From Methanococcoides orientis (GTDB taxonomy: Archaea > Halobacteriota > Methanosarcinia > Methanosarcinales > Methanosarcinaceae), in NCBI RefSeq assembly GCF_021184045.1, contig NZ_CP073710.1, positions 1,498,685 to 1,562,684 on the forward strand: a stretch of DNA of 64,000 nt, given 5' to 3'. Both the position numbers and the translations under genes were made by a program. The notes beneath the pieces are model-generated. The model was given only the letters and a program-made list of their open reading frames with translations. It did no database searches and was not told the origin of the DNA. This document shows, piece after piece, positions 4,966-12,605 of this stretch (positions are counted from its first letter, which is position 1; each line of letters opens with the position of its first letter).

Positions 4966-5541
4966 ATGGTAGAACCGGAAGAGATTGAAGGCATAGCAGA
5001 CGCACTTGGGGCTGTCACACATGACGAAATTGTAGAACTCGCTCAGGAACTTGCATATAAAAGAGAAGAGAATATACCTGACGAGGAAGAGATCACAATA
5101 ATGCTGGAAAAGGCAGTCTCCAAACACCTGCTTGAAGCAATATCCATTGAGGAACTTAGTGAAGCTGATGCTAAGGACAGTGAAGATGTTAATTATTATA
5201 TTGTAGGTCCACATGCATTCCCGAATTATCCATTCGATCTGAGCGAGGTCATTGATGTCCTCAAACTGGGCAGGCGAGAGGTCGATCCGGATAAGATCAC
5301 AAAGAGATTTTCCGGAAGACTGAAAGCCAGAATTACAAAAATCAGACACAATATAGAGGACTTTGCTAATGGACATAACAATAGCATTGACATCCCAACC
5401 CTCGAAAACAGATACAGCGACCTGTTAAATCTCTACTATGACTATGATTCGTGGCTTGAGGGGGAGATCACAGAGATGGAGGATGAGATACTGGATATTA
5501 GCAAACAGATCGATGCCCTGGGAGCAGCACAAGATATTTGA
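4966..5541 (+). CDS. Conserved archaeal acidic protein of unknown function
   Basis: About 191 residues from ATG 4966, preceded by CAGGAG at 4955-4960; an in-frame TTG at 4933 lies inside the previous gene. The protein is acidic and mainly helical. An N-terminal helical part (EIEGIADALGAVTHDEIVEL) precedes a segment with aromatic residues (YYIVGPHAFPNYPFDLSEV) and a C-terminal helical hairpin likely to be coiled coil (residues about 145-185). I do not recognise a characterised family, though similar proteins occur in haloarchaea and methanogens near translation genes. It lies between the Vms1-like gene and rlmE, so a link to ribosome function is possible but unproven. Confidence 0.75.
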   Translation: MVEPEEIEGIADALGAVTHDEIVELAQELAYKREENIPDEEEITIMLEKAVSKHLLEAISIEELSEADAKDSEDVNYYIVGPHAFPNYPFDLSEVIDVLKLGRREVDPDKITKRFSGRLKARITKIRHNIEDFANGHNNSIDIPTLENRYSDLLNLYYDYDSWLEGEITEMEDEILDISKQIDALGAAQDI

Positions 5542-10593: not shown

Positions 10594-10869
10594 ATGGAAG
10601 AGAAGAGTAAAACAACCACAAAAGCAAACAGCAAACCAGAGATCACTACCGAGGAACTTCTGTGGAATATCGGTCAGCCACATCTTGGAACACACATTCC
10701 ACCATCACTAAACGATGAACTTCCTGCCCTTGATGGAATTGAGTTCATGCCACACAAGACCGCTGGACTACAATCAGCTGCAGATATGTGGATCGACAAA
10801 GCAAGGATCAGCGATAACCTTCACAAAAAAACTGTTGTGGAAAAGATCCTGAAAGGTAAGACACTATAA
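10594..10869 (+). CDS. Small conserved-looking protein of unknown function
   Basis: 91 residues from ATG 10594. It starts with a charged, low-complexity tail (EEKSKTTTKANSKPEITTEE) and then has a compact part with PHLGTHIPPSLNDELPALDG and HKTAGLQSAADMWIDKA; basic C-terminus. No membrane segment or metal motif. A TATA-like ACATATAACT lies about 55 bases upstream, consistent with a single-gene transcript divergent from kae1. I do not recognise the family. Confidence 0.6.
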   Translation: MEEKSKTTTKANSKPEITTEELLWNIGQPHLGTHIPPSLNDELPALDGIEFMPHKTAGLQSAADMWIDKARISDNLHKKTVVEKILKGKTL

Positions 10870-10929
10870 GGTCAAAAACTTAAAAGACGACCTTATATAA
10901 ACTAATCATACAGTCATTTATGATCAAAA

Positions 10930-11439
10930 AGCTCTGTAGAAATCCCTCAATATTCGAGGGAGAACAATAATATCTATTTTATACAGATTTTCTACAGGGC
11001 CATCGAAATATTGATTATTATTGTTTTTGAGGAGTTACAGCATATATAGCAATGTTTTCCCGTGATAAATGACGGATTAACTCTGGTATTTGTTGCATTG
11101 CGATTCTTACCTCAAATCCATGTTCTAAATCTTCAATGCCATCTATAAAAGTTGTATTTTCTATAATTTCTCTTGTGCTTTGTTTATCTGCTACCTCAAA
11201 GTAAACAGTTATTTTATCATCGCTATAATCAAATGGGGTTCCTTTAACAGGTTCTAATTTCATAAACATATCACCTCCTTTTTTGTATTATGTACTTTAC
11301 TTATAGCGGCTCTGTAGAAATCCTCAATATTTGAATGAAATCGAACTATGTAATAATTTAGAACATATTGAAAAAATATTTATATATTGTTATGATATAT
11401 ACTTATTGATAGTGCTTTTGGCAGGTTTTCTACAGAGCC
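10930..11439. mobile_element. 510-bp cassette with IS-like inverted ends and 8-bp target duplication
   Basis: The left end (10930, AGCTCTGTAGAAATCCC) and the inverted right end (to 11439, reading inwards GGCTCTGTAGAAAACCT) match at 14 of 17 positions. The exact 8-mer GATCAAAA flanks it on both sides (10922-10929 and 11440-11447), which is strong evidence of one insertion event. Two further copies of the end sequence lie inside: at 10986-11001 (inverted) and at 11308-11323. The element is therefore built as end-end, cargo gene, end-end: a 72-bp and a 132-bp miniature element flanking 306 bp. No transposase is present. The 8-bp duplication and the end style resemble the IS6 family, but I cannot confirm the family. 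Confidence 0.75.
11018..11269 (-). CDS. Cargo gene of the mobile cassette; possibly an ABC-ATPase C-terminal-like domain
   Basis: 83 residues. A very strong AGGAGGTGAT ribosome site lies at 11270-11279, just before ATG 11269 (ATG 11263 is the other candidate). The C-terminal half, GIEDLEHGFEVRIAMQQIPEL followed by IRHLSRENIAIYAVTP, resembles the small domain at the end of many ABC transporter ATPases (DUF4162-like), but there is no nucleotide-binding domain. It may be a stand-alone small protein or a captured fragment. The gene is clearly more AT-rich than its neighbours. Function unknown; the ABC resemblance is my inference from pattern. Confidence 0.6.
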   Translation of the reverse strand: MFMKLEPVKGTPFDYSDDKITVYFEVADKQSTREIIENTTFIDGIEDLEHGFEVRIAMQQIPELIRHLSRENIAIYAVTPQKQ

Positions 11440-11483
11440 GATCAAAATACTAAATTAAAAAATGGATAAAGGAAGAGAATGGA

Positions 11484-12605
11484 TTAGATAATATCCATCT
11501 CACTCAGCCTGTTCGGAAGATAAGTATCCGTCACGAAATCAAGACCTTTTCCTGCAAAGGCTTGTTGTTCGGCCTTTTTCTTAATACTAAGTTGCAGGCT
11601 TATCTGTTCTTTCCAGTAGTCATTCGCAAACCTCGGATCTGTCAGCTCACTTCTCAATGCATCAATATCCTTGTCTGTCAGCTTGTCAGTGGAAAGTTCG
11701 TATTCCACGATATCGGATGGCTGTACACCAATGAACTTGGCTGCAGGTGTTGCCATGAATTCCGAAAGGTGAGCACTCTTGATAGCACCGTATGCAACCG
11801 ATGCGAAGATCCTGTAGGACCATGGATCACCATCAGTAAAGACGACCACAGGGATGCCCAGCTCTTCGTTCATCCTTTTGATAAGACGACGTGTTGACCT
11901 TGCAGGCTGTCCTTTAAGGTGCACAAGGATAGCATTGTACTTCTCATCAAAGCCGTTCTCGATGAGCCTCGCATACATACCACCAGTCTCGATGGCGATT
12001 ATGAACTTTGCATCATGGTCAAGGAACTCGATGTTCTCAACGTTGAATGGGATCTGGTAGCCGCTCTCACCGATATCTTCCTGGCAATGTATAACACGTG
12101 CACCACGTTTTGTTTCCTCGCGTATCCTGATAGGACCGAACATGGTAGCACCATCCTCCTCAGGACGCATGTGGAAATATTCCCTCTGGAGCGCAGTGAT
12201 GATCTCAAGGTCTTCGATCAGCCTGTTACTCTCGGCCTGCTCGCGGAACTTGGCAATATCCCAGTTCTCTGAGATGTAATACAATTCCCTTAAGGTCGAA
12301 CCACGGTCCTGTGCCAGGTGGTTCTTTACAAGGAAATCGATCGAGTGCACGGTTTTGAGAAGCTGGAAAGCACCCTTGACAGTCTTAGCGGTCCTCTGAG
12401 TCTCGCGATTACCATAGACCCAGACATCGCTTTCCTCACTGTACTCGATGTTGTTCTTGGTACGGCTTGAGATGCTGACATTCGGGACGACCTCGTCCAC
12501 GAACTGATCATACAGGTTCTCGGTCAAACCAAGAAGGCGGTTCTTTGCCAGCAGATCATGCTGTTTTTTCTGTTGTGAATATTTTGACTCTACATCATCT
12601 GCCAT
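11484..12605 (-). CDS. top6A: DNA topoisomerase VI subunit A
   Basis: 373 residues, usual for the Spo11/Top6A family. The catalytic tyrosine is in [13 protein letters not shown] (about residue 105), within the 5Y-CAP/winged-helix domain. The Toprim domain carries the acidic residues in [11 protein letters not shown] and [15 protein letters not shown]. With subunit B it forms the A2B2 type IIB topoisomerase that relaxes and decatenates DNA by ATP-dependent double-strand passage. It follows top6B after a single base. It ends just left of nothing but the mobile cassette. Confidence 0.96.

Follow-up and report, generated by a model that had tools for sequence, protein, structure and literature searches.

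The locus studied here raises the question of how a gene with clostridial relatives came to lie between two miniature elements in the chromosome of the archaeon Methanococcoides orientis, and whether gene and elements travelled together without a transposase of their own. The stretch of DNA analysed, referred to as the window, covers 64,000 nucleotides (positions 1498685-1562684 of the single 2,494,162-base contig). An original prediction, made from the letters of this stretch, had described a transposase-free mobile cassette carrying a single foreign gene.

Architecture of the unit

The unit comprises 510 bp between exact 8-bp repeats (window positions 10922-11447, repeats included) and consists of a miniature element (A), a gene on the minus strand and a second miniature element (B), as summarized in Table 1. 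It is located between a 91-aa gene (10594-10869) and a gene resembling topoVI-A (11484-12605; named by eye). Inverted ends with an exact 8-bp duplication outside them had been predicted, and both were read directly at these places: the outer ends are AGCTCTGTAGAAATCC, starting at 10930, and GGTTTTCTACAGAGCC, ending at 11439. The two further internal end copies are likewise present, at 10984-11001 and 11308-11323, and all four copies were recovered by the repeat finder. The cargo gene lies, as predicted, between miniature elements (A, 72 bp; B, 132 bp); each of them bears ends that are of IS5 type.

The frame of 83 aa is the sole open reading frame of at least 50 aa within the unit, in which no transposase family match was obtained, in agreement with the transposase-free description. 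This single gene is AT-rich, with a GC content of 31.7% versus 41.8% for the window, and the very strong ribosome site is confirmed, AAAAAAGGAGGTGAT lying ahead of ATGTTTATG. The frame covers 11018-11269; because the relatives begin at the second ATG, a start at that codon, giving 81 aa (11018-11263), appears likelier.

Table 1. Features of the 510-bp unit and its flanking repeats (window coordinates)
Feature	Position	Strand	Basis
Left copy of the target-site duplication, GATCAAAA	10922-10929		direct reading and flank-register comparison
Miniature element A (72 bp), with outer end AGCTCTGTAGAAATCC and inner end TTTTCTACAGGGCC	10930-11001	+	repeat finder, alignment
Cargo gene, 81 aa (83 aa with the first ATG at 11269); predicted ferredoxin-like fold	11018-11263	-	
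Strong ribosome-binding site region upstream of the likely start codon	11264-11285	-	
Element B, 132-bp miniature element, IS5-end family	11308-11439	+	alignment with other copies
Right copy of the target-site duplication, GATCAAAA	11440-11447		direct reading and flank-register comparison

Element B aligns over its full length with MITE copies of 127-132 bp and A with their two ends; A therefore resembles such a copy with its interior deleted. The minus-strand RNA of A folds better than 200 of 200 shuffled sequences (z -5.5), as an inverted-repeat element would show. On this strand, A (10930-11001) would form the 3′ region of a cargo transcript, with UUUUUG following the fold, and could act as a putative terminator for that transcript; a consensus terminator scan reported none.

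Terminal repeats and the outer duplication

The ends occur in other copies in the genome, as the original prediction required: with at most one mismatch, the 16-base end pattern has 14 matches in this genome, where the reversed control has none, and is present in 92 of the 111 family genomes (reversed control, 3 occurrences over all 111). The pattern is less specific at up to three mismatches (37 versus 12 for the control), and a 13-base version yields 4 matches with at most two mismatches in the 64-kb window against 2.2 expected, which is not beyond chance. Many end copies in this genome are solo or decayed: 20 of its end loci were inspected, and in 12 only one end was seen within 1.5 kb.

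Of 86 distinct inverted end pairs, 12 have exact flanking 8-mers at the transposition register, and none has them at any of 18 shifted registers; the pairs come from partly hand-chosen loci, which makes 12/86 a register control and not a rate, and the 12 cases include one phosphoesterase insertion counted in two species. One-mismatch 8-mers occur in none of the 86 pairs at the expected register and in at most 1 per shift, and the chance of an exact flank 8-mer, calculated from flank composition, is about 6e-5 per end pair. The objection that the 8-mer is chance, raised in the original prediction itself, is very improbable on this comparison. An 8-bp duplication belonging to one element alone was found neither for A (GATCAAAA / ATCGAAAT) nor for B (CTTATAGC / GATCAAAA), and the duplication sits solely at the outermost ends of A-gene-B.

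These results bear on a reading in which A and B inserted independently and came to lie beside the gene by coincidence, with a chance match of the 8-mers. Ends of this type are common in the family genomes, as such a coincidence would need; the restriction of exact flank matches to the transposition register, the lack of an own duplication for each element and the absence of the whole unit from the relative G025 make it very improbable.

The unoccupied site in relatives

In G025, the same two neighbour genes (protein identity 99% and 94%) enclose TTTCATCAAAAAACTAATTAAAAAA without an insert. The empty site that the original prediction proposed to seek in a close relative is therefore present, with a single duplication copy, CATCAAAA, matching at 7 of 8 bases within a diverged spacer. 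The two genes are likewise adjacent in G021, where the unit is absent. In the remaining eight members of the genus, 1.3 to 5.1 kb separate them, and no clear site was found.

An autonomous IS5-family element sharing the ends of the unit

The genus does contain a full element bearing such termini, which it had also been suggested to look for. In the G016 genome it measures 1000 bp, is flanked by an exact 8-bp target-site duplication (CAAATGTT) and encodes a DDE transposase that matches Pfam PF01609 (E 2.5e-18) and the NCBIfam IS5 model NF033579 (E 4.4e-68; 229.9 bits, cut-off 140). A second element, in G019, is flanked by TCAATTCC and has a full-length transposase frame without stops, with 82% protein identity to that of G016. 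On sequence comparison, the ends of the unit are those of an IS5-family insertion sequence of about 1 kb occurring in the same genus. Duplications of 8 bp are observed with these ends, as in the ISH1 subgroup of the IS5 family, of which the element is a candidate member. IS6/IS26-family ends, initially suspected on account of the 8-bp duplication and the terminal letters, were discarded because the intact G016 transposase scores as IS5; with the G019 enzyme so similar to it, the unit also falls outside the IS6/IS26 pseudo-compound transposons.

Using the G016 protein as query (E<=1e-20), transposase matches were obtained in 59 of the 111 family genomes and none in the window's genome, where a weaker or more distant match may exist. 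The predicted transposase from elsewhere stands as far as its family is present in relatives and undetected here at that threshold; we infer the supply in trans itself.

The G016 transposase frame (L086 913-1912, G016:C6) has no stop inside the element and stops 16 bases past the left end, in host DNA. In G023, a unit of 2691 bp that shares these ends and has an exact duplication, AATTTTTC (L132 773-3463, G023:C22), contains two IS5 transposase pieces around a different, transposase-like 301-aa ORF (judged by eye), and is probably an insertion sequence inserted into this IS5-end insertion sequence.

Solitary MITEs and sister cassettes

At three other loci (L014, L018 and L079), a MITE of 131-132 bp is flanked by an exact 8-bp duplication of its own, which indicates that this size class also moved by itself. 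Among 17 MITE-like copies checked singly, the duplication is exact in 3, has two mismatches in 2 and more in 12. Moreover, the chromosome of the window contains a further two cassettes that lack a transposase and have these ends between exact duplications, one carrying a metallophosphoesterase gene and the other a GDT1 antiporter gene.

The GDT1 cassette (G000:C1:231433-232200; L141 9434-10201) extends over 768 bp and comprises a 128-bp MITE, the GDT1 gene and a 30-bp mini element, the layout of the window unit, between exact 8-bp copies of AATATTTT. Its cargo encodes a 183-aa antiporter (Pfam 2.9e-46) with a GC content of 42%. The interior of its left MITE agrees with B in 84 of 142 columns, against 80 of 155 in a reverse-complement control, and is not clearly alike; membership of this cassette therefore rests on the ends. 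No flank match for an unoccupied site was found in 19 stretches of G019 and 16 of G020. The cassette lies between a GMP-synthase-like and a RecQ-like gene, both named by eye.

The phosphoesterase cassette (G000:C1:2049084-2050203; L050 1501-2620) extends over 1120 bp, with ends GGCTCTGTAGAAATCC and GGATCTCTACAGAGCC and the duplication GATTTAAT; its first 30 bp match an IS end at 96.7%, its only cargo is a 281-aa metallophosphoesterase (Pfam 3.2e-17), and a transposase is absent. In layout it is closer to a mobile insertion cassette, MIC231 having one pair of ends and the window unit two. The same insertion occupies the matching site in G018 (93.9% over 3034 columns). G020 lacks the element, in a spacer whose divergence is too great for one duplication copy to be recognized, and a search of G019:C14, where gene order is not kept, returned nothing for the sister-cassette site. 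Because neither has a clean unoccupied site, the proof for both sister cassettes is weaker than for the window unit. The metallophosphoesterase itself scores far under the cut-off for the anti-phage phosphoesterase model, with PADLOC PDC-S10 at 4e-12.

Proposed origin of the unit

We consider it probable that A, the gene and B moved as one non-autonomous composite through an IS5-family transposase acting in trans on the outermost ends. Two MITEs with IS5-family terminal repeats would have come to flank a clostridial-type gene, after which the transposase would have acted on the left end of A and the right end of B. The composite would then have inserted as one into the spacer between the 91-aa gene and the topoVI-A-like gene, where an 8-bp staggered cut would have produced the GATCAAAA repeats. 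The restriction of the duplication to the outer ends fits the predicted movement as a unit, and it is from this duplication, not from direct observation, that we infer a single event; that event, the source of the enzyme and the order of assembly are put forward as readings of the sequence.

A class-wide search for the cargo protein (237 genomes, E<=0.001) matched four genomes: the own genome, G018 with a close copy, and G085 and G087 with weak matches inside frames that read as ABC ATPases. The G018 copy is at a different locus, on contig C2, while the window's neighbour genes are on C3. The DNA match starts 6 bases inside the outer end of A and ends 16 bases short of B, with identities of 74% in A (53/72), 87% in the gene (214/246) and 46-57%, the background, elsewhere. 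In this copy, A is joined to the gene and B is missing, and no two ends with a duplication were found, either by a script allowing up to four mismatches per end or by eye.

Alternatively, a lone miniature element could have inserted and made the duplication, the gene being added inside later by other recombination and never having travelled with the ends. The outer duplication would look identical in that case, and B is missing from the G018 copy. We judge this unlikely, as two full end pairs are present rather than one split pair, A and the gene occur together at the different G018 locus with homology from 6 bases inside the outer end, and the window's chromosome carries another composite built in this way around a gene. 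Movement as a composite is favoured by the exact outer duplication, the unoccupied G025 site, the autonomous elements of G016 and G019, the MITEs with their own duplications, the sister cassettes, and A with the gene in G018. Against it count the lack of B or paired ends in G018, the 7/8 match in G025, the many MITE copies without an exact duplication, the 12 of 20 own-genome loci that are single-ended, and the GDT1 MITE interior not clearly like B.

A broader and rather doubtful generalization is that Methanosarcinaceae possess a standing system of gene capture made up of miniature IS5 elements, in which MITE pairs would take up single genes, including some from co-habiting clostridia. If true, such a system would spread transposase-free cassettes that any genome with a helper IS could receive and move.

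Relatives and origin of the cargo gene

The closest bacterial relatives of the gene are clostridial, which agrees with the predicted foreign origin. The relative in Clostridium weizhouense has 83.5% DNA and 72.5% protein identity, that in G429, of the same family, 79.8% and 70.0%, and one encoded on a plasmid of Paraclostridium bifermentans 71.3% and 53.2%; in Peptoclostridium litorale the relative is truncated, with 82.1% identity over the DNA left, and four Vibrio plasmids carry relatives at 35-37% protein identity. The G018 protein is closer to that of Clostridium (81.2%) than to that of the window (77.8%).

A search of the C. weizhouense genome for the end pattern, allowing up to two mismatches, gave no match (control 0), and the four bacterial loci gave none at up to three. 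The P. litorale genome contains two 2-mismatch end matches, which share one orientation and lie on separate contigs (control 0). Relatives carrying the gene without the ends had been named as a sign against a mobile cassette; this holds for the bacteria and not for G018, the one other close copy among the 237 genomes of the archaeal class, which keeps A and lacks B. Most likely, clostridia or a common donor supplied the gene, which was then boxed by MITEs in archaea; this direction is read from where relatives occur and from a ribosome site of bacterial type rather than from a tree.

The C. weizhouense relative (L096 5004-5246; 5537-5891) lies 290 bp upstream of a tmRNA gene, a common integration site, followed by a homing-endonuclease-like ORF (by eye). 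The P. litorale relative (L097 ~5004-5159) is ended early by a stop, and just upstream lies what we take, from its motif and by eye, to be an IS-transposase-like fragment. A match in Omnitrophota (L098) was rejected as a relative, since it covers 14 residues inside an apparently different protein.

Predicted fold, constraint and candidate function of the cargo

A structural model was generated from a two-sequence alignment (mean pLDDT 78.7) and shows a beta-alpha-beta-beta-alpha-beta topology. In the fold comparison, the basket domain of the PmtCD exporter is among the best matches (Z 8.8, rmsd 1.5, 59 residues) and ties with copper chaperones with Atx1-like domains (Z 9.0). Because of this tie, the fold alone decides nothing, and a metal-chaperone (HMA) reading was set aside. 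Foldseek gave no match with the model at E<=0.001, and no solved chain matched the cargo profile better than E 0.9.

A profile of six relatives matched 16 of 206 genomes in the family of C. weizhouense at E<=0.001: two contain close copies (one being C. weizhouense), one a free-standing 93-aa frame, and 13 an ABC-ATPase-like frame each, matched in its C-terminal part (E 2.8e-7 to 2.4e-4). Pfam confirmed ABC_tran in both of the two tested among these 13. With moderate confidence, the cargo protein is a putative free-standing relative of the C-terminal (basket) domain of ABC ATPases; a literature search on the basket domain found nothing. A Pfam PSP1 identity (E 0.07) is under the cut-off. An antitoxin, defence or phage origin was likewise set aside, PHROGs and PADLOC giving no match up to E 1 and phage records containing none; 57 candidate stretches from viral contigs yielded no confirmed cargo relative.

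Substitution rates (NG86) are dN 0.10 and dS 0.36 between the window and G018, dN 0.11 and dS 0.60 between G018 and Clostridium, and dN 0.16 and dS 0.30, a weaker constraint, between the window and Clostridium. The unit might also have been kept as a working expression cassette, with B as a TATA-like promoter, A as a 3′ hairpin and a domesticated gene whose protein is useful to the host, a reading compatible with the others that we regard as possible without favouring it. Partial constraint in the first two comparisons, the strong fold of the A minus strand, the stretch ATATATAAATA on the minus strand of B and the failure to find the transposase family in the own genome (E<=1e-20) are consistent with it. 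The TATA-like stretch is absent from other aligned members (by eye) and is expected in AT-rich DNA; this, the empty terminator scan and the weak constraint relative to Clostridium argue against domestication.

Relation to known mobile elements

The unit shares with composite elements and mobile cassettes terminal repeats common with an autonomous IS, a duplication at the outer ends and the lack of an internal transposase. MITE-bounded composites are known from bacteria, to which the window unit adds an archaeal, IS5-based case with an unusual cargo history. It represents a concrete vehicle by which methanogens could move individual genes while having no transposase of their own, three such cassettes being present in one chromosome, and its tie to a gene so close to a Clostridium sequence makes carriage of interdomain acquisitions by MITE pairs testable in archaea. 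Among the literature matches listed, mostly outside the subscription literature, none describes an archaeal MITE-gene-MITE or IS5 cassette, and neither does the available text of a MITE review (PMC10969869).

The following comparisons refer to the available text of each source. TIME-COMP elements, segments bounded by Tn3-derived miniature elements (PMC4133298, PMC13367494), likewise consist of two MITEs, direct or inverted, around a core without transposition genes, with a target duplication. They differ in having Tn3-family ends and 5-bp duplications and in occurring in bacteria, whereas the window unit has the ends of an IS5-family element, 8-bp duplications, an archaeal host, unequal MITEs and one small gene. 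In Acinetobacter, pairs of 439-bp MITEs around integrons (PMC3934969) also form a composite transposon-like structure with direct target repeats; there, the MITEs are identical, the repeats are 5 bp long, and a large resistance segment is carried in a bacterium. Mobile insertion cassettes are a named class (PMC3129680) of IS-related elements that, like the unit, lack their own transposase and can be activated by a related IS; MIC231 (cited in PMC2266710) belongs with IS231 of the IS4 family, unlike the IS5 ends of the unit. Finally, the IS5-related Methanosarcinaceae MITEs IsMbu10, ISMma12, ISMba19 and ISMac15, tabulated in PMC3852290 and compared here by description only, have lengths of 140-252 bp, repeats of 0 or 3 bp and no listed cargo genes; with those of the window they have in common that they are IS5-linked miniature elements of methanogens, with listed IRs of 15-17 bp.
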